A program made the translations under genes and the position numbers. A DNA stretch of 37,287 bases, taken from the NCBI GenBank assembly GCA_948470565.1, contig CAOKPF010000009.1, forward strand, positions 1-37,287, written 5' to 3'. Positions 3,136 through 36,978 of this stretch are shown here, in pieces. Positions within the stretch are counted from its first letter, which is position 1. Each line of letters opens with the position of its first letter. This DNA is from an uncultured Clostridium sp. Its GTDB lineage: Bacteria > Bacillota > Clostridia > TANB77 > CAG-465. A model generated the notes under the pieces. That model did no database searches and was not told the DNA's origin. It was given only the letters and a program-made list of their open reading frames with translations.

Positions 3136-4155
3136 TTAAGTTATATTTATTATTTCTTGAACGATATCAATATTATCATTTATTGTTTTTATAAAGTTAT
3201 CTGTAAGATTTGTATCAAATTGTGTCCCCCTATTTCTATTGATTTCATTTAAAGCATATTCAATAGATGATTTTTCTTTGTAAGGTCTTTTTGCTGTAAT
3301 AGCATCAAAGCAATCGCATAATGCAAGAATTTTTGCAAGATATGGGATTTCATTACCATTTAGTTTTTCAGGATAGCCTTTTCCATCTATTCTTTCATGA
3401 TGATATAAAATTATAGGGATAATATCATTAAACATTTGAGATACACTCAAAATATTTGCTCCTGTAACAGGGTGAGACTTTATAACTTCATATTCTTCAT
3501 TTGTAAGCACAGTTGTTTTTAATAAAATGCTATCTGGTATACCAATTTTTCCAATATCATGAAAATAACCAGCATTTTTTAAAAGTTCAACATCTTCTTC
3601 TGGTAAATTCAAACTCTCTCCAAAAAGTTTAGCATATTTAGATACTCTTATAGAATGACCTTCGGTATAGTGATCTTTTGCACCAACAGTATTTAGCAAA
3701 ACTTTTGCAAAATCTATTACATATTGTTCTAATCTTAATCCCATACTTTTTATTCTATTTAATTGCTCTATATATTTTATACCACTTTGAATTAGTAAAA
3801 CAAGTTGTTCAAAGTGCGAGTTTTTTTCAAAATATGCTTGTATATCTAAATTTTGCATAATTTCTATTGAAGGAGTTAAGTCTTTGTGCATGGACATAAG
3901 AATAATATATATTTCTTTATCAAATTCGCGTACTAGTTTAACTATTCTATCTCCTTGTACAGGTGACATTAAGTAATTTACTAATAATATATCATATTTT
4001 TCAGATTTCATAGCTTCAATTGCAGAAACTGGTTCTGTAAAGGGATAAACTGTATGTCCATATTTACTTAGGATAATGCTTAGCATATCCATAAGATTTA
4101 CATCATCATCAATTATTAATATTTTAGCATTAGTATTCTTTTTTGTTTCATCCAT
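3136..4155 (-). CDS. Receiver-HD-GYP protein with Asn at the phosphoacceptor
   Basis: A 339-residue two-domain protein. Residues about 9-130 are a CheY-like receiver: the acidic pocket is intact (IIDDDVN), as are the switch Ser (LMSM) and Lys (FEKN), but the phosphoacceptor position reads ILLVNYLMSP, so the usual Asp is Asn60. Residues about 150-320 are an HD-GYP phosphodiesterase with FHDIGKIGIPD and HHERIDGKGYP intact, the signature of c-di-GMP hydrolases (some act on other cyclic dinucleotides). I start at 4155 (MDETKK), preceded on its strand by GGTGATT; the longer frame to 4218 opens with TTG and has no ribosome site. It is divergent from rel and no kinase is adjacent. The output is probably a c-di-GMP hydrolase not switched by ordinary aspartyl phosphorylation. 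Confidence 0.88.
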   Translation of the reverse strand: MDETKKNTNAKILIIDDDVNLMDMLSIILSKYGHTVYPFTEPVSAIEAMKSEKYDILLVNYLMSPVQGDRIVKLVREFDKEIYIILMSMHKDLTPSIEIMQNLDIQAYFEKNSHFEQLVLLIQSGIKYIEQLNRIKSMGLRLEQYVIDFAKVLLNTVGAKDHYTEGHSIRVSKYAKLFGESLNLPEEDVELLKNAGYFHDIGKIGIPDSILLKTTVLTNEEYEVIKSHPVTGANILSVSQMFNDIIPIILYHHERIDGKGYPEKLNGNEIPYLAKILALCDCFDAITAKRPYKEKSSIEYALNEINRNRGTQFDTNLTDNFIKTINDNIDIVQEIINIT

Positions 4156-4351
4156 AATAATCACCAATAATAGTATATCAAACAAATAGATAAAATTCAA
4201 TGGAAATAAAAAAATCAATGAAAAATTATCTATATATTATTAATACAATTTTAATTTTTAATCGTAAATAAAATTAATATAGGTTGGTATTATTTTAGAT
4301 TATTTTTATATAAATTTGTTCTTAAATTATATATTTTTTATATATTTTTGA

Positions 4352-16000: not shown

Positions 16001-16083
16001 GTTTGAAATAGGATAATTTTTTCTAAATTATAAAAGTAAGCAAAAAGTTAATATATTGGTTAATGAATTGGAGGGAGAATAAT

Positions 16084-16764
16084 ATGGCAATATTAGAGTT
16101 TATATTAAATAATAAAGAGTATTTAGAAGATTTTACCACAAGAAGTACTTATCATTCAAATGCAATTGAGGGAAGTACACTTACGTATACTGAAACTTAC
16201 GCTATCCTATATAATGATAATAGTTTCAAAATTGAAGGAAAAGAGCCAAGAGAAATATATGAAGCTATTAATCATAAAGAGGCTTTAGAATTAGTTTTTA
16301 AAATCATACAAGAAAATGAAATTTTTGATGAGAGATTTATAAAAAAAATAAATAAAACTATAACCTCAAATATTAAAGATACTGATGGATATAGAACAGT
16401 GCAAGTATTTATTAAAGGTAGTGAGCATATTTCACCAGCACCAGAAAAATTACCGAATTTAATGAATTATTATGTATATAATTATATACACGATGAACAA
16501 GATATTTTTAATAAAATTGCTAGGTATCATATTGAATTTGAAAAGATACATCCCTTTGAGGATGGTAATGGACGAACAGGTAGATTGCTTTTAAATTATG
16601 AATTAATAAAAAATAATAATCCACCTGTAATTATATCAAAAGATGAAAAAGTAAAATACTTTGAACTGTTAAGAAATAATGATGTTATAGGTTTTTCTAA
16701 AAGTTTAAAAGAATTATCTTATAAAGAAGAAGAAAGAATGAAAAAGTTTGGATATAATGGATAA
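16084..16764 (+). CDS. Fic-domain protein, self-inhibited (class II)
   Basis: A 226-residue Fic protein. The catalytic motif HPFEDGNGRTGR (His156 first) is complete, predicting transfer of AMP, or another phosphate-linked group, from a nucleotide to a target hydroxyl. An N-terminal inhibitory motif S25-NAI-E29-G30 (in YHSNAIEGSTLT) matches [S/T]xxxE[G/N], so activity should be held off by its own helix with no separate antitoxin, and none is adjacent. The flap region (VQVFIKGSEHISPAPEKLP) is typical. I start at 16084 because GGAGGGAGA (16070-16078) is correctly spaced; the earlier ATG at 16063 overlaps that site. It is accessory cargo in the second half of the spoIVB-ctsR slot. Targets are unknown. 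Confidence 0.93.
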   Translation: MAILEFILNNKEYLEDFTTRSTYHSNAIEGSTLTYTETYAILYNDNSFKIEGKEPREIYEAINHKEALELVFKIIQENEIFDERFIKKINKTITSNIKDTDGYRTVQVFIKGSEHISPAPEKLPNLMNYYVYNYIHDEQDIFNKIARYHIEFEKIHPFEDGNGRTGRLLLNYELIKNNNPPVIISKDEKVKYFELLRNNDVIGFSKSLKELSYKEEERMKKFGYNG

Positions 16765-25628: not shown

Positions 25629-25645
25629 TTGCAATATTATTGCAA
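25629..25645. promoter_or_regulatory. TTGCAATA palindrome at the transcript start
   Basis: TTGCAATA-T-TATTGCAA, a perfect 17-bp dyad beginning about 4 nt after the expected transcription start. Position suggests an operator that blocks promoter clearance, or a 5' hairpin of the mRNA. Confidence 0.6.
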
Positions 25646-25663
25646 ATTAAAAAGGAGAAGTAT

Positions 25664-26974
25664 ATGTTATTGGAATTTAAAATGAAAAATTTTAAGTCTT
25701 TTAAAGAAGAAATGGTATTTAAAATGGTTTCAAGTCAAATAAAGGACTTAGAGCATAGTTTGATAAGCAAAAATGTAAATGGAAAGAGATTTAAAATTTT
25801 ATCTTCTGCTATTATATATGGTCCAAACTCTTCTGGAAAAACAAATATAATGTGTGGAATGGAAGTATTACGTTCTATTATTTTAACTGGAAATATACAA
25901 AATAAGGAAAATAATTCTAGTTTAAACACAGCAGTAGAAGTTTTGGAATTAATTCCTAATATAGAAAATGATGAAAAAGAACCCGTGTATTTTTATATAA
26001 AGTTTTTGGCAGAAGATATGATAATAGAGTATAAATTATTGCTTGAATTGGGCTCATTTCTTGATATGAATTATGATAGGAAGATACTTAATGAAGAATT
26101 ACACATAAATAATAGTTTAATATATAAAAGAGACACTAATTTAAAAATAGGCAAAATTGAAATAATAAAGGAATATCTTATAGAAAATTTTTCAAAGGAA
26201 ACTGCTGAAAAAATAGCTAAAACTAATTTAGATGATAAAGAATTATTTCTTAATGGGATGTTTAAAACTTTATATAGCAAAAGGTTATTTGATATAATCT
26301 ATAACTGGTTTAGATTAAGTTTTAGAATTGTCTATCATTCAGATAAATTACATATTTATCCAATTACCGATGAAAATGAAAAAGAAAAAAAGCTTTATGT
26401 AGATAAAACTTTAAATGAAGCAGTAAGAGATTTTGGACTAACATCTGAAAAAATAGCTTATCCTATAAATACTGATGAGAAAGTAATAGAACCAGTATCT
26501 GTAATAGAAAAAAAGGCATCAAAGGAGAGAATTGTATTACCAGCAGAGGTATTTGAATCTTTTGGTACAATAAGATTTTTAAATATATTTCCTTTAGTAG
26601 TAAGTGCAATAGAGAATGGTATAACTTTAGTTATTGATGAATTTGACGCTTCAATTCATCCAATGGCAATTATGAATATTATTAATATTTTTCATAATGA
26701 TGAGATAAATACAAAAGGAGCACAGCTAATTTTTAATACTCATAATCCTATATTTTTAAATAATTCTTTATTACGAAGAGATGAAATAAAATTTGTTGAA
26801 AAGGAAGAAAATGGAAGTATTCATTATTCACTGTCAGACTTCGGAACTAATGGTAAAAATGGAGTTAGGAACAAAGAAGATTATATGAAGAACTATTTTG
26901 TGAGTAAATATGGTGCTATTAAAGATATTGATTTTACAGAAATATTTATTAAAAAACAAAGAAAGGATGAATAA
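25664..26974 (+). CDS. AAA/ABC-type ATPase of an AbiL-like defence pair (RloA/AbiLi-like)
   Basis: A 436-residue ATPase of the SMC/OLD-like AAA_15/AAA_21 group. It starts MLLEFKMKNFKSFKEEMVFK, the usual FKSF strand. The P-loop is YGPNSSGKTN (about 52-61), Walker B and D-loop LVIDEFDASIHP (about 322-333), and the His switch is FNTHNP. The C-terminal part contains IKFVEKEENGSIHYSLSDF, typical of RloA/AbiLi-like proteins. Paired with RloB it should act as the sensor or gate of an abortive-infection module. I start at 25664 with AAAGGAGAAG upstream; the longer TTG start lies inside the 25629-25645 dyad. The stop codon directly abuts the rloB ATG. Confidence 0.9.
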   Translation: MLLEFKMKNFKSFKEEMVFKMVSSQIKDLEHSLISKNVNGKRFKILSSAIIYGPNSSGKTNIMCGMEVLRSIILTGNIQNKENNSSLNTAVEVLELIPNIENDEKEPVYFYIKFLAEDMIIEYKLLLELGSFLDMNYDRKILNEELHINNSLIYKRDTNLKIGKIEIIKEYLIENFSKETAEKIAKTNLDDKELFLNGMFKTLYSKRLFDIIYNWFRLSFRIVYHSDKLHIYPITDENEKEKKLYVDKTLNEAVRDFGLTSEKIAYPINTDEKVIEPVSVIEKKASKERIVLPAEVFESFGTIRFLNIFPLVVSAIENGITLVIDEFDASIHPMAIMNIINIFHNDEINTKGAQLIFNTHNPIFLNNSLLRRDEIKFVEKEENGSIHYSLSDFGTNGKNGVRNKEDYMKNYFVSKYGAIKDIDFTEIFIKKQRKDE

Positions 26975-27631
26975 ATGAAAATATGTAATAAATACTACTT
27001 GTCTGTAGAAGGTGAAACTGAAAAATGGTATTTTGAACATTTGCAAAATTTAATAAACAATAATCATGATATATTACGAAGAGTAAAGTTTGATATAAAG
27101 ATAAATAAGTCAATAAAAAATAGAGCTAAATCAATAGCTGCCATATATAAAACTAAGGCATTTCATATATGTGATTATGAAAGTAATAATGATATACATA
27201 TTAAACAATTTGATCAGGTTCTAGATGATTTAAAAAATGTACCAAAAATAAATAAAAATATTGAATATAAACTAGGTTATAGTAATTTTTCATTTGACTT
27301 GTGGATTATATTACACAAAAAACAACAATTGGGTGGAATATCACATAGAAAGCAATATGTAAATGGAATTAATAAAGTATATAATGAAAAGTTTCAGTTT
27401 ATTGATGATTACAAAGAAGAAAAAAACTTTAAAAGAATATTATCCAAAATAAAATTAGAAGATGTAATTAATGCTATAAATAATGGAAACGAAATTAGAA
27501 AAATAAATGATGAAAGGTGTAATAATAAAAAGAAATATGGAAATTTTATATATTACACAGAAAATCCTGATATGACAATAAACCAATGTATCGAACAGAT
27601 ATTAAAAGAGTGTGGTGTGATAAAAAAATAA
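26975..27631 (+). CDS. RloB/AbiLii-family protein (TOPRIM-like effector)
   Basis: A 218-residue protein of the RloB family. VEGETEKWYF (about 10-19) is the family's conserved Glu motif, ICDYES supplies the acidic residue of the next strand, and SNFSFDLWIILHKK (about 104-117) is the RloB signature SNxxFxxWxLLH. The arrangement Glu, then Asp, resembles a TOPRIM metal site, so nuclease-type action is plausible but not shown. RloB partners an ATPase in AbiL-type abortive infection, which matches this gene order. Translation starts at the base after the ATPase stop, with GGATGA as a weak ribosome site, so synthesis is probably coupled. A terminator follows. Confidence 0.9.
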   Translation: MKICNKYYLSVEGETEKWYFEHLQNLINNNHDILRRVKFDIKINKSIKNRAKSIAAIYKTKAFHICDYESNNDIHIKQFDQVLDDLKNVPKINKNIEYKLGYSNFSFDLWIILHKKQQLGGISHRKQYVNGINKVYNEKFQFIDDYKEEKNFKRILSKIKLEDVINAINNGNEIRKINDERCNNKKKYGNFIYYTENPDMTINQCIEQILKECGVIKK

Positions 27632-27652: not shown

Positions 27653-27685
27653 AAATAGACATACGCAAAATGTATGTCTATTTTT
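27653..27685 (+). terminator. Intrinsic terminator after the RloB gene
   Basis: AAATAGACATAC (27653-27664) and GTATGTCTATTT (27672-27683) form a perfect 12-bp stem with a 7-nt loop and end in T. It separates the defence pair from the NRPS. Confidence 0.85.
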
Positions 27686-27706: not shown

Positions 27707-27735
27707 TTGATTTGTTTCCTAATATTTGATACAAT
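27707..27735 (+). promoter_or_regulatory. Promoter of the NRPS operon
   Basis: TTGATT (27707-27712), exactly 17 nt, and TACAAT (27730-27735) with TG at 27727-27728, an extended -10. The NRPS start is 36 nt downstream of the -10. Confidence 0.7.
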
Positions 27736-27771: not shown

Positions 27772-30700
27772 ATGGAAAATAACAAGTATGAATTAACATA
27801 TCCACAAAAAAATATTTGGTTAGTTGAAAAACTAAATGAAAATACAGCAATAAATGCAATAACGGGAATTATAAATATTAAAGAAAACTTTGATGCCAAT
27901 ATATGTAATTTAGTAATAAATCAAGTAATAAAAGAAAATGATGCACTAAGAATTAGAATAAAAAATAATATAGGAAAAGTATCTCAGAATGTATCTGATT
28001 ATATGGTAGAAGATTTTGAAATTGTAGATATGTCTAGTAAGATAAAGTCAAATATAGATGTTTATTTAGATGAGTATGCTAGACAAAGTTTATCAACTAA
28101 GAATGAAAATTTATATGAATTTAAAATATTAAAGTATAGCCACAATCAAGGTGCAATACTTATGAAAATACACCATATAATATCTGATGCGTGGAGTTGT
28201 AGTCTAATTGGTACAAAGCTTATTTCATTATACGATAATTATATAGAAAAACAAAAAAGTGATGAAAAACTGCCACCAAGTTATATAGATTATATAAAAT
28301 CAGAACAAGAATATATTAATTCTGAAAAAATGATACAAGACGAAAAATTCTGGAAAGAATATTTAAGTGGTGCTAAAAGTAATGTTGGTTTAAAAAGTAA
28401 TTCACTAAGTAGCAATGTACTTGCTAAAAGATATACTGCTGATTTGGAAGAGGAGTTTAACGCAAAATTACTTACATTTTGCAAAGATAACAAAATATCT
28501 GTATATGCATTATTTATTGCAATATTGTCAGTATATATTTACAGGATAAAAGATGAAAGAGACTTTTTAATAGGAACTCCAATATTAAATAGAGCAAATT
28601 TTAAAGAAAAGCAAATAATTGGTATGTTTGTGTCAACTATACTTGTTAGAATTAAAATTGATGAACAAATTAAAGTTCTAGAACTTGCAAAAAACATATC
28701 AATTGATAACTTAAAACTATTTAGACATCAAAAATATCCATATTCAAAAATAGAACAGATAATGAAAAATGATAGAAATAATGGTCAAAAATTATATAAC
28801 ATAATGGTATCATATCAAAATGCTAGAACTAAGTTAGATAATACAAAATATTCAACTGATTGGAAATTTTCAGGTTGTATTCAAGATGAAATTGACATTC
28901 ACATAATGGACATGGATGATACGGGAATTTTAAAAATTAATTATGATTATTTAACAGATGTATTTTCTGAAAAAGAAATACGATACCTTCATACAAGGCT
29001 TATTGCAATTTTGTCAAACTTAATTAATAATCCTGATATAAATGTTGAAGAAATTGACATAATGAGTAAAGAGGAAAAAGATAAAATTTTGTTTGAATTT
29101 AATAATACCAAAACTGACTATCCTAGAGATAAAACCGTTATAGAGTTGTTTGAAGAACAGGTAGAAAAAACGCCAAATAGTATTGCTATTGTATTTGAAG
29201 ATGAAAAAATTACATATAAAAATTTAAACGAAATGTCTAATAAACTTGCAAATTATTTACGAGAAGAGAAAAAAATAGGTGTAAATGATATTGTAGGTAT
29301 TATGATGGATAAATCATCAAGATTAATTGTTACAATTCTTGCGTGTTTAAAATTGCAAGCCTGCTATATACCAATAGATAATTCATATCCTAAAGATAGA
29401 AAAATATATATGATAGAAAATTCTGGTTGCAAAATTGTTATAACTGATGAAAATGGGGATACTTTAGCTAGTGATAAAGAAATACTTAATTTAAAATATA
29501 ATGAAATAAATAATTATTCAAATTGTAATTTGCAAATTAATGATAGTTTATATAATGATAATGTATACATAATGTATACTTCCGGAACAACAGGAAATCC
29601 AAAAGGTGTAATAGTTGAAAATAAAAATATTGTAAGATTAGTAAAAAATACAAACTATATAGAGTTTTTGCCAACTGATAAGATAATACAAACAGGTTCG
29701 ATAGTATTTGACGCATCTACATTTGAATATTGGGGGGCTTTACTAAATGGGTTACCATTATATTTGATAAAAAAGCAAGAATTACTTGAACCTAGTAGAT
29801 TAAAGCAATATGTAAGTGATAACGGTATAACAATTATGTGGCTTACATCTGCACTGTTTAACCAGATGATTGGTGCAGATATAGAGATATTTGAGAATAT
29901 AAGAGTATTATTGGTGGGTGGAGATATTTTATCACCTAAACATATAAACAAAGTAAAAGAAAAATATTCAAATATAAAAGTAATAAATGGATATGGGCCA
30001 ACTGAAAATACAACTTTTTCTTGTTGCTATGAAATAAATGATACTTTTGAGGATAATATACCTATTGGAAAACCAATTGCCAATAGTAAATGTTATATAG
30101 TAGATAAAAAACAAAGGCTACTACCTATATTTGTTGAAGGTGAACTATTAGTTAGTGGAGATGGTGTTGCAAAAGGCTACTTAAATAATGAAGAGTTAAC
30201 AAACAAAAAATTTATTGCAGATCCATTTAATACTGATAATATTGCATATAAAACAGGAGATATAGCATATTTCTTAGATGATGGAAATGTATCGTTTGTC
30301 GGTAGAACAGATAATCAAGTAAAAATTAGGGGAGTTAGGATTGAATTAGATGAGTTAAAAAATGCAATTTTACAAATAGATGGAATTGATGATTGTGTTG
30401 TATTAGCTGATAAAGCGAAAAATAGCTTAACCGTATTTTATACAAGTACTAAAACTATTTCAAACGACACTATATATAATTATTTACATGAAAAATTACC
30501 AATGTATTATTTACCAAATAGACTTGTAAATATACCATATATTCCGTTAAATAACAATGGCAAAGTTGATATGAAAAGGCTTAATGAATTTTGTAAAGTT
30601 AAAAGAAATAATTCATTTAACAATGATAATACGAAATTACAAAGTGAGATAATAGATATAATTTGTAATATAAGCGGTTCAAATTTAAATGACATTTCAA

Positions 30701-33700
30701 AAAATATATATGAATTTGGTATAGACTCACTTAGTGCAATAAAACTTTCATTAAAACTTAATGAGAAATACCATACTAATTTATCGCCAAAAAACATATT
30801 TGAATTAAATACAATTGATATGATTGCAAGTTATATTCAAAATAACAGTAGTAGTATTAACTTAAAATTAGGAGCTAAACAGGATAAATATCCACTTACA
30901 GTATCACAAAGTGGGATTTTTTCTGAATATTCAATAGAACCAAATAGTTCTAGGTACAATATAGTGTTTGAAGTAAGATTTAGTAAAAAACTTGATTTGG
31001 AAAAATTAAAAAGCTCAATTAAAGAGGCCGTGTTATCACAAGATACACTGTTTACTAAGTTTAAAATTGAAGATGGACAAGTTTACCAATTTGTTGATAA
31101 CGTGGATAACTTTGATATAAGTGTGGAAAATGTAGATGAAAAAGAGTATATTGAGAGAAAAGATAAGAATATAAAAGTTTTTGATTTGTTACAAGATAGG
31201 TTATTTTGTATAAAAATGTATGTAACAGAAAGCAATATATATGTAATTTTTAATTTTCATCACATTATATTTGATGGAACATCTATATACATTTTGCTAA
31301 ATACAATAAAAGAGAACTATTGTGGTCAAGTGAAAAAATTCAAAAGTGACATATGTTTAGGACAAGTTGCAATTTTTGAACAGGAGCAAAAGAAAAGTAA
31401 TAAATATAATCAGGCTAGGGAATATTTTCTAAATATGTTTGATGGTGAGTTACCAAACAATGAACTACCACTAGATATTCCACGAAAGATAAATAAAACA
31501 TTTAATGGCAATAATATGCAGTTTAAATTAGACAAAAATATTGTAAACAAATTAAAAGAATTTGCAATAAATAATGGAGTTACTTTAAACAGTGTACTTT
31601 TTGCAATGTTTAACTTCTTACTTGCAAAATATATGTATAATGAGGATATAATTGTTGGTATTGCAAAAGATGATAGGTGTTTAAAGGAAGAGGAAAATAT
31701 CATAGGAATGTTTGTAAAGACAATCCCATTTAGAACTAAGATAGACTATCATAAAACAATAATAGATTTTGTAAAAGAAGTACATATTTCTCAAATTGAA
31801 ATGTTTGATAATGCTGTATATCCATATGAAGAATTAATAAATGAGCTAGATATAAAAAGAAATACAAATCAAAATCCCTTATTTGACATAATGTTTGTTT
31901 ATCAAAATTTTGGTATGCCTGAAATTTTAATTGATAATACAGATATTAAAATTAATACTTTAACAAATAATACATCAAAATTTGATTTAACTTGTGAAAT
32001 AATGCCAAATGGTAATGAAATTGATATAAATTTAGAGTATAATTGTGATTTATTGTATGAAGATACTATACGAAATTTTGGTATTCATTACATTAATATT
32101 TTAAATTATATGTTAGATAATACTACTGCAAGACTGTATGATATTGATATGTTATCACAAACTGAAAAAGATGTAATTTTAAATACTTTTAATGCTACTA
32201 AAGTTGATTATCCAAAGGATAGTTCTTTAGTAGAAATATTTGAAGAGTTTGCAAAAAATCAACCAGACAAAGTTGCAGTTGTATTTGAAGATAAAAAAAT
32301 TACATATGATGAACTAAACAAAAAAGCAAATAAACTGGCTAGATATTTACTTTCTAAAAATATACAATGTGGTGATTTTGTAAGTGTTATGATAGATAAA
32401 TCTATTGAATACATGATAAGTATTATAGCAATACTTAAATGTAGAGCTGCATATATTTCACTGACAAAAGAGTTACCAGATGAGAGAATGAAGTATATGA
32501 TAGAAAATGCAGGTTCCAAATTGATACTTACAACTAAAGAATATTATAGGAATGTGACAGATATAGAGATTGTAGATATAACTAAGGAAGAAATTTTTAA
32601 CAGTGATAAATTTTTAGATGAAAATTTGGAAATTACATATAATGCAAAAGATATAGTTCATATTATATATACTTCTGGTACGACTGGTAATCCTAAGGGA
32701 AATATGATAATTAATAGGGGAATAGTAAGATTAGTAAAGAATACCAATTATTTGGAGTATACTTCTGATGATGTAATGTTAAGTACTAGTACACTTACAT
32801 TTGATACGTCAACTTTTGAAATATGGGGGGCAATTTTAAATGGAATGACATTACATTTATTAGGTAAAGAGAAGGTATTAGAGCCTAGATATTATAGTAA
32901 GTATTTAGCTCAAAATAAAATTACGACTACACTTATTCCAACACCTATTTTTAATCAGTTAGTTGAAGTAGACGTAAATATGTTTTCTAATATGAGAGCT
33001 ATATATGTGGGTGGAGATGTAATGCTTTCTAAATACGCAAATAAAGTATATGAGAATTGTAAAAATGTAAAATTATATAACGTATATGGTCCTGCTGAAA
33101 ATACAGTTATATGTACAGCTAACCTAATTGATAAAAAATATGAGGGAAGTATTCCTATTGGAGCAGTTGTATCAAATAATGTATGTTATGTTGTTGATAA
33201 ATGCGAAAAATTATGTCCTGTAAAAGTTCGAGGTGATTTGTTTGTAGGTGGAGATGGTCTGGGACTTGGATACATTAATATGGAAGAGATGACTAAAGAT
33301 AAATTTGTAAATGTTGATTTTACAGATGAAAAACTATATAAAACAGGTGACCTTACATACTGGGATACAGATGGTAAGCTTAATTATTTATCAAGAATAG
33401 ATATGCAGTTAAAGATTAGGGGACAAAGAATTGAAGTATTAGAAATTCAAAATAGATTACTTGAGTTAGATAATATAAGTGAGGCAGTTATAACTGTACA
33501 TGAAAAAAATGACAAAAAGTACTTGATTGCGTATTATACTACAAATTCTGAAATAACTGAAATTGATATAAAATTGTATTTACAAAAATATTTACCTAAA
33601 TATATGATACCATATAAATTTGTAAAGCTAGAAAAAATGCCATTAAATCAAAATGGTAAGATTGATAAAAAGGCTTTACCTAAAGTAAAAGTTGTGGATA

Positions 33701-35193
33701 GTGTGAATATCGTATTGCCTAAAAATAAGGAGCAAGAAAAATTACTTAATATATTTAAAAATGTACTAAGTAATGATGACATTGGTATAAATAGTGATTT
33801 TTTTGAATGTGGTGGAGACTCACTTTTAGTTGTAAGTTTAGCATCAAAGTTAATGTCTAGTGGTTATGATATTAGATATGCAGACGTGTACAAATATAGT
33901 ACAGTAGAGGAAATATATAATCTTTTATACAAAAATGAAAGTAAATCTTCTATTTCAAAAGGAATTGAAAATTACAATTATAGAGATATAGAAAAAATAA
34001 TGGCTTGTAATGATGTAAAAAACATAGATGAAATAAAAATAAAAGAAAATTTAGGCAATGTACTTCTTACTGGAGTAACAGGTTTTCTTGGAGTTCATGT
34101 ACTTGAAAGCTTAATTAATAATGGTGTGGAAAAAGTATATTGTTTAATTAGAGAAAAAGATGGTAAAGGCATAGAAACAAGGATAAAAGAGAAACTTAAC
34201 TTTTTCTTTGATAAAAAAACGTCAGAACATATATATAGTAAAATAAAATTAATAAATGGTGATTTAACTTTAACAGGTGTATTTAGTGATAGTAAAGGGG
34301 CTATAACAGAGATGATAAATGATATAAGTCTAGTAATTAACTGTGCTGCTTCTGTAAAGCATTTTGGCAGTGTTAGTAGATTTATGGATATAAATGTTAA
34401 AGGTGTGCAAAATTTGACTGAATTTTGTGTAAAATACAAAAAAGAACTAATACAAATATCTACACTTAGTGTATCAGGAAATATATTAGAGGGCGGACAA
34501 ATAATTCAGAAAAATATAGTACAAGGACAGGAATTTAGTGAAACTAATTTATATATAGGTCAGGATTTGGATAATATTTATGCTTATACTAAATTTTTAG
34601 GTGAAAAAGTGGTATATGAAGCTATGATAAATAGTGGGTTGAAAGCTAAAGTTATAAGAATGGGAAATCTTACAGGAAGATATAGAGATGGTAAGTTTCA
34701 ACCAAATGTGGAGGAAAATGCTTTTTCTAATAGGATAAAAACCTTAGTAGATATGAAAATTATCCCACAAAGTATATATGATTTATACATTGAAATGACA
34801 CCAATAGATTATGCAGCAGAGGCAATAGTAAAACTTGCCTTTTTAGATGGAGAATTTAATACATTTCATTTATTTAATGATAATCATGTAATAATGCCTA
34901 AACTATTACAAGTTTTAAAAGAATATGGTGTGGACATTAATATTTTATCTGATGAAGAGGTAAAAAATGTTATAAATGAATTTAAGAAAAATGACGATTT
35001 AAAGAAAATAGAGGGAATTTTAAATGATATTGGAATTGATGGTAGTATAAAGTACAATGATAATATAAAAGTAAAATCTGATTTTACAAAGGATATATTA
35101 AAGAAGTTTGGATTTATTTGGCCTAATGCTGAAAATGAATATCTAAGACTTTATATAAATTATTTAATAGATATTAAATTTATAGAAATATAA
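27772..35193 (+). CDS. Two-module NRPS, C-A-T-C-A-T-R, dipeptide aldehyde type
   Basis: A 2473-residue nonribosomal peptide synthetase. C1 (about 1-430) has HHIISDAW (His134, His135); being N-terminal it is probably a starter C domain that adds an acyl group. A1 (about 440-950): YTSGTTGNPKG near 602, specificity residues read by eye D-A-F-W-L-G-G-T-F-K, a valine-type code. T1: GIDSLS, Ser986. C2 (about 1035-1460): HHIIFDG, His1163. A2 (about 1470-1980): YTSGTTGNPKG, D1678, residues D-T-F-L-Y-G-V-V-I-K, hydrophobic but unmatched by me. T2: GGDSL, Ser2017. R (about 2085-2473): TGVTGFLG near 2100 and YAYTK (Tyr2270, Lys2274), a thioester reductase releasing an aldehyde. No epimerase or thioesterase; the phosphopantetheinyl transferase must lie elsewhere. 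GGTAGGTG precedes the ATG. Same architecture as gut-clostridial dipeptide aldehyde/pyrazinone synthetases. Confidence 0.95.
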   Translation: MENNKYELTYPQKNIWLVEKLNENTAINAITGIINIKENFDANICNLVINQVIKENDALRIRIKNNIGKVSQNVSDYMVEDFEIVDMSSKIKSNIDVYLDEYARQSLSTKNENLYEFKILKYSHNQGAILMKIHHIISDAWSCSLIGTKLISLYDNYIEKQKSDEKLPPSYIDYIKSEQEYINSEKMIQDEKFWKEYLSGAKSNVGLKSNSLSSNVLAKRYTADLEEEFNAKLLTFCKDNKISVYALFIAILSVYIYRIKDERDFLIGTPILNRANFKEKQIIGMFVSTILVRIKIDEQIKVLELAKNISIDNLKLFRHQKYPYSKIEQIMKNDRNNGQKLYNIMVSYQNARTKLDNTKYSTDWKFSGCIQDEIDIHIMDMDDTGILKINYDYLTDVFSEKEIRYLHTRLIAILSNLINNPDINVEEIDIMSKEEKDKILFEFNNTKTDYPRDKTVIELFEEQVEKTPNSIAIVFEDEKITYKNLNEMSNKLANYLREEKKIGVNDIVGIMMDKSSRLIVTILACLKLQACYIPIDNSYPKDRKIYMIENSGCKIVITDENGDTLASDKEILNLKYNEINNYSNCNLQINDSLYNDNVYIMYTSGTTGNPKGVIVENKNIVRLVKNTNYIEFLPTDKIIQTGSIVFDASTFEYWGALLNGLPLYLIKKQELLEPSRLKQYVSDNGITIMWLTSALFNQMIGADIEIFENIRVLLVGGDILSPKHINKVKEKYSNIKVINGYGPTENTTFSCCYEINDTFEDNIPIGKPIANSKCYIVDKKQRLLPIFVEGELLVSGDGVAKGYLNNEELTNKKFIADPFNTDNIAYKTGDIAYFLDDGNVSFVGRTDNQVKIRGVRIELDELKNAILQIDGIDDCVVLADKAKNSLTVFYTSTKTISNDTIYNYLHEKLPMYYLPNRLVNIPYIPLNNNGKVDMKRLNEFCKVKRNNSFNNDNTKLQSEIIDIICNISGSNLNDISKNIYEFGIDSLSAIKLSLKLNEKYHTNLSPKNIFELNTIDMIASYIQNNSSSINLKLGAKQDKYPLTVSQSGIFSEYSIEPNSSRYNIVFEVRFSKKLDLEKLKSSIKEAVLSQDTLFTKFKIEDGQVYQFVDNVDNFDISVENVDEKEYIERKDKNIKVFDLLQDRLFCIKMYVTESNIYVIFNFHHIIFDGTSIYILLNTIKENYCGQVKKFKSDICLGQVAIFEQEQKKSNKYNQAREYFLNMFDGELPNNELPLDIPRKINKTFNGNNMQFKLDKNIVNKLKEFAINNGVTLNSVLFAMFNFLLAKYMYNEDIIVGIAKDDRCLKEEENIIGMFVKTIPFRTKIDYHKTIIDFVKEVHISQIEMFDNAVYPYEELINELDIKRNTNQNPLFDIMFVYQNFGMPEILIDNTDIKINTLTNNTSKFDLTCEIMPNGNEIDINLEYNCDLLYEDTIRNFGIHYINILNYMLDNTTARLYDIDMLSQTEKDVILNTFNATKVDYPKDSSLVEIFEEFAKNQPDKVAVVFEDKKITYDELNKKANKLARYLLSKNIQCGDFVSVMIDKSIEYMISIIAILKCRAAYISLTKELPDERMKYMIENAGSKLILTTKEYYRNVTDIEIVDITKEEIFNSDKFLDENLEITYNAKDIVHIIYTSGTTGNPKGNMIINRGIVRLVKNTNYLEYTSDDVMLSTSTLTFDTSTFEIWGAILNGMTLHLLGKEKVLEPRYYSKYLAQNKITTTLIPTPIFNQLVEVDVNMFSNMRAIYVGGDVMLSKYANKVYENCKNVKLYNVYGPAENTVICTANLIDKKYEGSIPIGAVVSNNVCYVVDKCEKLCPVKVRGDLFVGGDGLGLGYINMEEMTKDKFVNVDFTDEKLYKTGDLTYWDTDGKLNYLSRIDMQLKIRGQRIEVLEIQNRLLELDNISEAVITVHEKNDKKYLIAYYTTNSEITEIDIKLYLQKYLPKYMIPYKFVKLEKMPLNQNGKIDKKALPKVKVVDSVNIVLPKNKEQEKLLNIFKNVLSNDDIGINSDFFECGGDSLLVVSLASKLMSSGYDIRYADVYKYSTVEEIYNLLYKNESKSSISKGIENYNYRDIEKIMACNDVKNIDEIKIKENLGNVLLTGVTGFLGVHVLESLINNGVEKVYCLIREKDGKGIETRIKEKLNFFFDKKTSEHIYSKIKLINGDLTLTGVFSDSKGAITEMINDISLVINCAASVKHFGSVSRFMDINVKGVQNLTEFCVKYKKELIQISTLSVSGNILEGGQIIQKNIVQGQEFSETNLYIGQDLDNIYAYTKFLGEKVVYEAMINSGLKAKVIRMGNLTGRYRDGKFQPNVEENAFSNRIKTLVDMKIIPQSIYDLYIEMTPIDYAAEAIVKLAFLDGEFNTFHLFNDNHVIMPKLLQVLKEYGVDINILSDEEVKNVINEFKKNDDLKKIEGILNDIGIDGSIKYNDNIKVKSDFTKDILKKFGFIWPNAENEYLRLYINYLIDIKFIEI

Positions 35194-35229: not shown

Positions 35230-36978
35230 ATGGTAAATTTAATTTATATGTTAGTAGCGTTTTGTATAATATTTGGAATGCAGATTAGACTGTTAAAGAA
35301 TAAGGAAAAAAATATACTGTGTAAAGAATTTATTGTTCTGTGTGGAAGTTTGGAAGTGCATGTTTTTGGATTGATTTTACAGATTATGTTTCAAAATACA
35401 AGTATTCCACCTGTATATTTTGATTATATATCATATATTGGAGCATTTTTTACACCTGTATGTTTCTTTTATATAGCACTTACATTTAGGAATAGAAATA
35501 TAAAAATAAAGGATTATATTTGGTTGCTTGTAATACCTATATTGTCACTTTTGATATTATGGACAAATGACCTTCACCATTGGTTTTATAAAGTGTATTC
35601 TATAAACATACATGAGGTTAGTATGGGATTTGCTTTTTATATATATTCAATATATTCGTATACATTAATATTTGTAGCAATGGCAATGCTCATATCTACT
35701 TCAATGAAAAAGTCTGGATTTTTCTCAGCCCAGACCGCCTTTATAATTATTGGTGGCTTAGTGCCAATTGTAGTAAATATTTTAGGTACACTTAATATAA
35801 TTAATATGACAATATATATAACTCCAATATTATTTATTGTAACATCAATTTGCTTTTCGTTTGCAATATTTAAGTATAAAGCATTAAATATTACACCAAT
35901 TGCCTTTAAAACTGTTATTAATACTATGTCAGATGCATATATAGTTATTTCAGATGATGGAACAATAGTTGATACTAATAAGACATTTAGGGATAAGTTT
36001 GAAAGTATTTTTAAATTTGATAAAGATGAAAACTTTTTTAGAGCAATAGAAGAAAGTAAGATAATTAATTTGAAAGAATTAAAAAGTAACATAAAAGAAA
36101 CTAGAAAAAGTGGTAGTATAGTTACAAAAGAGTATAATTTTGTAAAAGATGAGTTTAATAAGTATTTTGAAATAGATATTCACCCAATTAAGGCAACTAA
36201 GACTACTACTGAATATGTTGGTACATTACTGTTATTTAAGGATATAACTCAACATAAGGAGGATATTGCTATAATTCAAGAAAAGCAAGAGGTTATTGTA
36301 AAGCAACAACAACTTGTATCTATTGGTGAACTTGCAGGTGGAGTAGCACATGATATTAATACACCAATATCGGCTATAAAGACAGGGATTATGATGTTAA
36401 ATGAGATGAATGGGCAAAGATCAGATGGTGAAAAAGAAATATTGGATAGAATGGATAGTTGTGCTACCAAAATAGTTAATATAGTAAATAGTATGAGAAA
36501 TCAAATTAGAAATCTTGGTGGAGATACTAATGTAAAATTTAAGATTAGTAGTGTTGTAAATGATATAAAGGTAATAACGTATCATGAGGTTGCTAAAAAT
36601 AATTCAGAGGTTATAGTAGATATACAAGATGATTTATCAGTTAAAGGAGATCCTACTAAATTAGGTCAAGTGCTTACTAATTTGGTTGTAAATGCAGTAC
36701 AAGCTTATGGAGATAATGGAGGTAAAATTGAAATTACTGTAAAAAAATCAGAAAATGAAATGGCATCTATTACTGTTGCGGATAATGCAGGCGGATTAGA
36801 TGAGGGGATTGAGAAATATATTTTTAAAAATATACTTACGACAAAAGGTACTAATGGCACAGGTTTAGGATTATACTTGTCATATTCTGTTATAAAGGGT
36901 AATTTTGATGGAGAACTTACATTTAAAACTAAAAAAGGTGTTGGAACTACCTTTAATATATTAATACCATATGTATAA
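35230..36978 (+). CDS. Membrane sensor histidine kinase (7TM-PAS-HisKA-HATPase)
   Basis: A 582-residue sensor kinase. The first ~220 residues have about seven hydrophobic segments in the arrangement of the histidine-kinase N-terminal 7TM domain, suggesting a ligand sensed in or through the membrane. A PAS domain follows (about 230-345, SDAYIVISDDGTIVDTNKTF to LLLFKDIT), then a HisKA helix with LAGGVAHDINTPISAIKTG (phosphorylated His374), N box LTNLVVNAVQAY, G1 VADNAGGLD and G2 GTNGTGLGLYLS. All catalytic boxes are intact. It starts 36 nt after the NRPS stop with AAGGGG nearby, so it is probably co-transcribed. No response regulator follows within the window. It may report on the NRPS product or its precursors, but that is inference from position. 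Confidence 0.92.
   Translation: MVNLIYMLVAFCIIFGMQIRLLKNKEKNILCKEFIVLCGSLEVHVFGLILQIMFQNTSIPPVYFDYISYIGAFFTPVCFFYIALTFRNRNIKIKDYIWLLVIPILSLLILWTNDLHHWFYKVYSINIHEVSMGFAFYIYSIYSYTLIFVAMAMLISTSMKKSGFFSAQTAFIIIGGLVPIVVNILGTLNIINMTIYITPILFIVTSICFSFAIFKYKALNITPIAFKTVINTMSDAYIVISDDGTIVDTNKTFRDKFESIFKFDKDENFFRAIEESKIINLKELKSNIKETRKSGSIVTKEYNFVKDEFNKYFEIDIHPIKATKTTTEYVGTLLLFKDITQHKEDIAIIQEKQEVIVKQQQLVSIGELAGGVAHDINTPISAIKTGIMMLNEMNGQRSDGEKEILDRMDSCATKIVNIVNSMRNQIRNLGGDTNVKFKISSVVNDIKVITYHEVAKNNSEVIVDIQDDLSVKGDPTKLGQVLTNLVVNAVQAYGDNGGKIEITVKKSENEMASITVADNAGGLDEGIEKYIFKNILTTKGTNGTGLGLYLSYSVIKGNFDGELTFKTKKGVGTTFNILIPYV

Follow-up and report, generated by a model that had tools for sequence, protein, structure and literature searches.

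A starter-condensation nonribosomal peptide synthetase paired with a histidine kinase in uncultured Clostridia and its possible role in signalling

Introduction

Small nonribosomal peptide synthetases (NRPSs) that end in a reductase (R) domain are known from gut anaerobes, including the ruminopeptin synthetase of Ruminococcus bromii and the gut family of Fischbach. Gut dipeptide aldehydes are sometimes N-acylated, protease inhibition has been attributed to them, and most readings so far have cast them as inhibitors directed at host proteases. The gut NRPSs are predicted to release dipeptide aldehydes, bioactive metabolites of which the aldehyde is the active form (review PMC12327764). Two modules with a leading condensation (C) domain and a terminal release domain are also found in mru_0068 of Methanobrevibacter ruminantium and Swol_1094 of Syntrophomonas wolfei; a supplementary alignment labels their release domain as a thioester reductase, and the leading C domain has been linked to N-acylation (PMC2812497). 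The surroundings of mru_0068 comprise serine phosphatases, an anti-sigma factor antagonist and a MatE efflux gene, with no histidine kinase listed (PMC2812497).

Three further systems are relevant for comparison. The aureusimine synthetase AusA (NF047350) has two modules, a terminal R domain and a Val-type first residue. It lacks an N-terminal C domain and has AusB as its partner phosphopantetheinyl transferase (PPTase). The fengycin synthetase comprises many modules in a long line and frees its product through a thioesterase, and the RpfF-RpfC-RpfG (DSF) system combines a signal synthase with a membrane histidine kinase and a REC-HD-GYP regulator.

Here we describe a synthetase gene in a 37,287-nt stretch of DNA from an uncultured Clostridium sp. 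(the window). Like the gut dipeptide aldehyde synthetases, the encoded enzyme is small and R-terminated, and its gene, like those of its relatives, lies in an apparently conserved operon with a histidine kinase gene. Among NCBIfam models, AusA matches the full-length window protein best, but we rejected membership in this family given a score of 1502.7 bits against a cutoff of 2500 and the extra N-terminal C domain. In contrast to AusA, the window synthetase carries a starter C domain, and its genome yielded no PPTase of the Sfp type. The best PDB match to its R domain is 6vtj, which we take to be the R domain from M. ruminantium. With RpfF-RpfC-RpfG the locus would share a proposed logic rather than a family: in related Clostridia, the synthetase, kinase and REC-HD-GYP genes are adjacent, but the paired enzyme is an NRPS and not a crotonase-fold synthase like RpfF. 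Unlike the hybrid kinase RpfC, the window kinase consists of HisKA and HATPase without REC or HPt, and, unlike RpfG, the REC partner in the window's family is unlinked and has no recognised HD-GYP domain. REC-HD-GYP proteins are adjacent in many other Clostridia, whereas in the window's genus they are unlinked and not exclusive to genomes with the pair. We propose only by analogy that the synthetase-kinase unit may work like RpfF/RpfC/RpfG.

Results and discussion

Domain architecture and adenylation codes

The synthetase was first read from the sequence alone as a self-contained C-A-T-C-A-T-R enzyme with all core motifs intact and an N-acyl dipeptide aldehyde as its predicted product (Table 1). 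This domain order is borne out by Pfam, which assigns two Condensation, two AMP-binding, two PP-binding and one NAD_binding_4 domain to the 2473-aa protein, and by a check of the motifs. The adenylation (A) domain motifs are intact (YTSGTTGNPKG twice, YGPTE and YGPAE, YKTGD twice, NGKVD and NGKID), the carrier serines are present in FGIDSL and CGGDSL, and the R domain has GVTGFLG (2101), STLSVSG (2230) and YAYTK (2270-2274).

Table 1. Features of the synthetase locus and a possible partner gene in the window.
Feature	Position	Strand	Basis or remark
REC-HD-GYP regulator	3136-4218	-	Counterparts in 28/28 genus genomes; possible partner only
Terminator-like stem-loop, 12-bp stem, between AbiL-like pair and synthetase	27653-27683	.	
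Candidate TG-extended -10 promoter, TTGATT-17-TACAAT	27707-27735	+	Weak
NRPS C-A-T-C-A-T-R, 2473 aa, ATG start	27772-35193	+	Open ORF and Pfam domains
C1, starter-type condensation domain, HHIISDAWS	27784-29082	+	Fengycin-type starter grouping, support 0.907
A1, code DAFWLGGTFK (Val)	29137-30606	+	Code and coded relatives
T1, carrier domain, FGIDSL	30634-30846	+	Pfam and motif
C2, LCL-type condensation domain, HHIIFDG	30877-32178	+	LCL clade, support 0.97
A2, code DTFLYGVVIK; nearest coded relatives Ile/Val-type	32227-33681	+	
T2, carrier domain, CGGDSL	33709-33936	+	Pfam and motif
R, NAD(P)H thioester reductase release domain	34027-35190	+	S2230/T2231, Y2270 and K2274 conserved
Sensor histidine kinase, 582 aa, HisKA_7TM, PAS-like fold, HisKA and HATPase	35230-36978	+	Proposed receptor

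Both specificity codes of the earlier note were reproduced, DAFWLGGTFK for A1 and DTFLYGVVIK for A2. The reading of A1 as valine-type is supported by MlcM, in which the same code is assigned to Val (PMC9113097). A2 had been described as matching no familiar code, and DTFLYGVVIK is indeed absent from the literature that we searched, but its closest coded domains are Ile- and Val-type: apart from the A2 of one genus member (G027; 66% identical and with the identical code), the nearest domains carry a Val code and the Ile code DAFFLGVTFK, the latter standing for Ile or Val in cyanopeptolins (PMC2533009). The R domain keeps G2101-x-x-G2104-x-x-G2107, S2230/T2231, Y2270 and K2274, each cofactor or catalytic residue being shared by no fewer than 65 of the 67 to 68 domains aligned at that position. 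With all catalytic residues retained, it does not have the appearance of the dead reductase that would have spoken against an aldehyde product.

The N-terminal condensation domain is of the starter type

Ranking of PDB matches for C1 and C2 did not separate the starter from the elongation type for C1, and we therefore built a tree of 135 condensation domains that included named reference domains. All 83 N-terminal C1 domains form one clade (support 0.907) that includes the starter domains opening the lipopeptide lines of Bacillales, while the window C2 lies among LCL domains (support 0.97). Among the starters grouping with the window C1 is that of the first module of a fengycin-type synthetase (L140) flanked by dacB and a DUF1360 gene and carried by a Bacillus amyloliquefaciens plasmid, presumably the fengycin locus as judged from its gene neighbourhood. 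The C1 domains show HHxxxDA and the internal C domains HHxxxDG, though the prevalence of HHxxxDA stems in part from the search itself, as DAW formed part of one of the two patterns used. No second NRPS was found in the window's genome (2.1 Mb, 96.6% complete), so C1 cannot take over a peptide from an upstream module. C1 falls with starter domains; a grouping with the LCL type would have contradicted the earlier prediction. Together with the lone NRPS, the retained R residues and the Val-type A1, this leaves an N-acyl dipeptide aldehyde as the best prediction.

We regard the biosynthesis side of our model as well supported. The predicted product is an N-acyl-Val-(Ile/Leu-type)-aldehyde, for which we infer the acyl chain length, the second residue and the oxidation state of the aldehyde. 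One observation counts against the model. NRPS carrier domains require activation, but no Sfp-type PPTase was found in the window's genome with the PF01648 and PF22624 profiles. The sole PPTase found there, as in nearly all genomes of the genus, is of the AcpS type (G000:C10:31369-31635), and activation of the carrier domains therefore lacks an explanation.

The synthetase gene is followed by a histidine kinase gene

The stem-loop upstream of the synthetase is the sole terminator-like site between 24300 and 37287, although such sites are not above chance number. Similarly, the promoter candidate is weak because promoter-like sites occur at chance density in the window's DNA of 25% GC (126 found versus 114.5 +/- 12.3 expected), and a promoter of its own for the synthetase, as read earlier, seems plausible from the sequence. 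The histidine kinase gene starts 37 nt past the synthetase stop codon, and the scanned region shows no terminator-like site separating the two. Both genes probably form one operon, and the boundaries 27772-35193 miss its second gene. Directly upstream of the synthetase lies an AbiL-type phage defence pair (25640-27631) composed of an AAA ATPase (PADLOC AbiLi, 8.9e-70) and an RloB-like protein (AbiLii, 6.6e-12), and a Fic/DOC domain protein matching the PADLOC candidate defence family PDC-S04 (1.8e-60) is encoded at 16063-16764. In a structure model of the kinase, the 7TM region has confident transmembrane helices and a PAS-like fold precedes the kinase part; a structure search with this model returned PAS-kinase cores only, with no informative match for the 7TM part among the matches listed.

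The description of the synthetase as self-contained fails, since it is the first gene of a conserved synthetase-kinase pair. Synthetases of this family occur in 12 of 28 genus genomes (4 C-A-T-C-A-T-R and 8 one-module C-A-T-R enzymes), and the kinase is the next gene on the same strand in all 12 cases at gaps of -41 to +37 nt. The 7TM-type genus kinases are 55-66% identical to the window kinase, and the kinase is better conserved than the synthetase (e.g., 67% versus 53% for G027). Of the family's 36 genomes, 19 carry the two genes, invariably adjacent, and 14 have neither; the exceptions are one genome whose sole trace of the pair is a partial synthetase at the end of a contig (G031) and two with only the kinase (G020 and G022). 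To look beyond the family, we collected loci by C1 alignment alone in a scan of 84,980 genomes, which yielded 80 named loci nearly all from metagenome-assembled genomes of uncultured Clostridia, many of them from gut samples. A kinase is encoded within three genes of 61 of the 66 R-terminated synthetases with enough downstream sequence and directly adjacent in 58, compared to a background of 7 in 438 gene pairs from the same loci. At seven loci (L070, L080, L111, L049, L051, L052 and L103), the synthetase or kinase is split into consecutive ORFs, reflecting either assembly frameshifts or real splitting or decay.

This conserved pairing shifts the likely role of the product from that of a protease inhibitor only to that of a probable signal. 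The synthetase itself belongs to a known kind, and the kinase may have been noticed before; in keyword searches of the open-access literature, whose scope did not extend to the primary papers on gut dipeptide aldehydes, we found no description of the synthetase-kinase-REC unit.

REC partners and genomes with the kinase only

At around 30 loci outside the family, the kinase gene is directly followed by a REC-HD-GYP gene (Pfam HD_5 and Response_reg). The window encodes a REC-HD-GYP protein 47% identical to this post-kinase regulator, but we rejected it as a dedicated partner given its presence in 28 of 28 genus genomes, 14 of them without the kinase. A different REC-domain protein, encoded at an unlinked site (G000:C59:124-1161), has the phospho-acceptor Asp and the Lys, no recognised HD-GYP domain and a C-terminal region outside Pfam families that by eye resembles a degenerate kinase. 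Its full-length orthologues (E <= 1e-86) are present in all 22 family genomes with the kinase or the synthetase and in none of the remaining 14, which have distant homologues at best. These 14 negatives form one clade in the gene tree, so the profile within the genus amounts to one joint loss, and we rejected a reading of the split of 14 versus 14 genomes as many independent points.

Neither of the two kinase-only genomes has the synthetase, while both retain kinase and REC protein. By parsimony on a single-gene tree, the synthetase was lost separately in each. Their kinase gene lies beside nth/pyk- or glmU-like genes (L124 in G022 and L125 in G020), as expected of listeners, and judging from these neighbours, recognised by sequence, it looks to be at the same site as in genomes with the pair.

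The sensor follows the type of synthetase

The sensor halves of the kinases fall into two classes, 7TM and type II. All two-module synthetases that have a full-length kinase are paired with the 7TM class (L110 was counted as two-module by length and is C-A-T-R by domains), while among the kinases of one-module R-terminated synthetases 25 are type II and six, all in or near the window's genus, are 7TM. Among the 7TM pairs, sensor distance tracks the distances of C1, the last A domain and R once divergence of the kinase core is corrected for (partial r 0.63-0.85, p <= 0.002), a co-divergence that, like the joint exchange described next, is partly due to physical linkage because linked genes are inherited together and the sensor adjoins R.

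Three mosaic loci (L031-L033 in G013, G008 and G012) have a genus-type C1 and kinase core flanking an exchanged A-T-R and sensor. Their C1 is 43-60% identical to genus members and 32-38% to outside loci, and their kinase core 69-87% and 32-37%, respectively. A, R and sensor are not of the genus type, and the A code DLTKIGEVGK is the Asn-type code (assigned to Asn in PMC12283262). From comparison of these sequences, the product-making part and the sensor have been exchanged jointly between conserved ends.

A proposed signalling function and its alternatives

We propose with about even confidence that the cell makes the aldehyde as a signal of its own, which the neighbouring kinase senses, an arrangement similar to RpfF/RpfC/RpfG but with an NRPS-built ligand. 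In this model, the starter C1 would load a fatty acyl group onto the synthetase, A1 would add Val and A2 a bulky aliphatic residue, probably Ile/Leu-like, before R, using NAD(P)H, reductively releases the finished N-acyl dipeptide aldehyde. With its amine capped, this product would not cyclise to a pyrazinone, and, being small and lipophilic, it should require no dedicated exporter. The aldehyde or a derivative would then act as ligand for the 7TM-PAS histidine kinase from the gene immediately downstream, and this kinase may signal to REC proteins, in the window's family most likely the unlinked one; we infer both ligand binding and phosphotransfer. In other Clostridia, the adjacent REC-HD-GYP regulator would link the signal to cyclic-di-GMP turnover.

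Regulators often neighbour biosynthetic genes, and the short distance at which the kinase follows the synthetase would also fit a cluster-situated regulator that responds to an environmental cue and sets aldehyde production accordingly, with the aldehyde inhibiting proteases of the host, protists or competitors. The study of gut dipeptide aldehydes as bioactive metabolites (review PMC12327764) agrees with such a function, yet we consider this main alternative rather unlikely here. Two things speak against it: kinase and REC partner persist in two synthetase-less genomes, and the sensor type follows the synthetase type and is exchanged along with A-T-R. In addition, neither gene of the pair was found to encode a DNA-binding regulator, and the regulators next to the kinase elsewhere in Clostridia have HD-GYP output.

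Adjacency and matching of sensor and product would also be accounted for by a kinase that protects the producer by monitoring its own reactive aldehyde or the resulting proteolysis stress. However, the non-producers G020 and G022 keep the kinase (though protection from the product of neighbours could explain this) and no protease or detoxification gene was seen within the conserved unit, making this role quite improbable. Finally, C1 could be inactive or decorative and the enzyme could release a free amino aldehyde that forms a dihydropyrazinone or pyrazinone as with AusA, but we find this highly improbable despite the sub-cutoff match to AusA and the HHxxxDA motif in place of HHxxxDG, given that C1 retains both histidines and the aspartate, falls with lipid starters, occurs in every synthetase of the family and leads even one-module C-A-T-R enzymes that could not make a pyrazinone from a single residue.

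More tentatively than for the signal function itself, we suggest that these loci could represent an undescribed and widespread signalling class of uncultured Clostridia in which starter-C NRPS aldehydes are species-variable autoinducers with matched kinases and a REC relay. If true, differences in A code among sister species would serve as pherotypes, lineages without the synthetase would be listeners, the products would be N-acyl amino-acid or N-acyl dipeptide aldehydes, and the REC relay would include cyclic-di-GMP phosphodiesterase regulators. The conserved, co-diverging kinase that accompanies the synthetase across dozens of gut Clostridia makes aldehydes as inter-bacterial signals a directly testable alternative, for which the loci offer matched synthetase-sensor pairs, mosaic pairs, natural non-producing listeners and a possible cyclic-di-GMP link.

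Variation of the release domain

Two C-A-T synthetases of the same C1 family end differently. The release domain at L084:9968-14290 resembles the reductase part of PigE (5.6e-12), the release region at L097:9983-14323 looks similar to it by sequence, and at both loci the kinase is followed by a REC-HD-GYP regulator with an inserted domain. This suggests independent replacement of the aldehyde-forming release domain. The synthetase at L112 ends in a thioesterase with the kinase kept, and other kinase-bearing synthetases of the C1 family have no recognised release domain. Across these PigE-like, thioesterase and no-release loci, the aldehyde is therefore not strictly tied to the kinase, which instead follows the C1 family as a whole.
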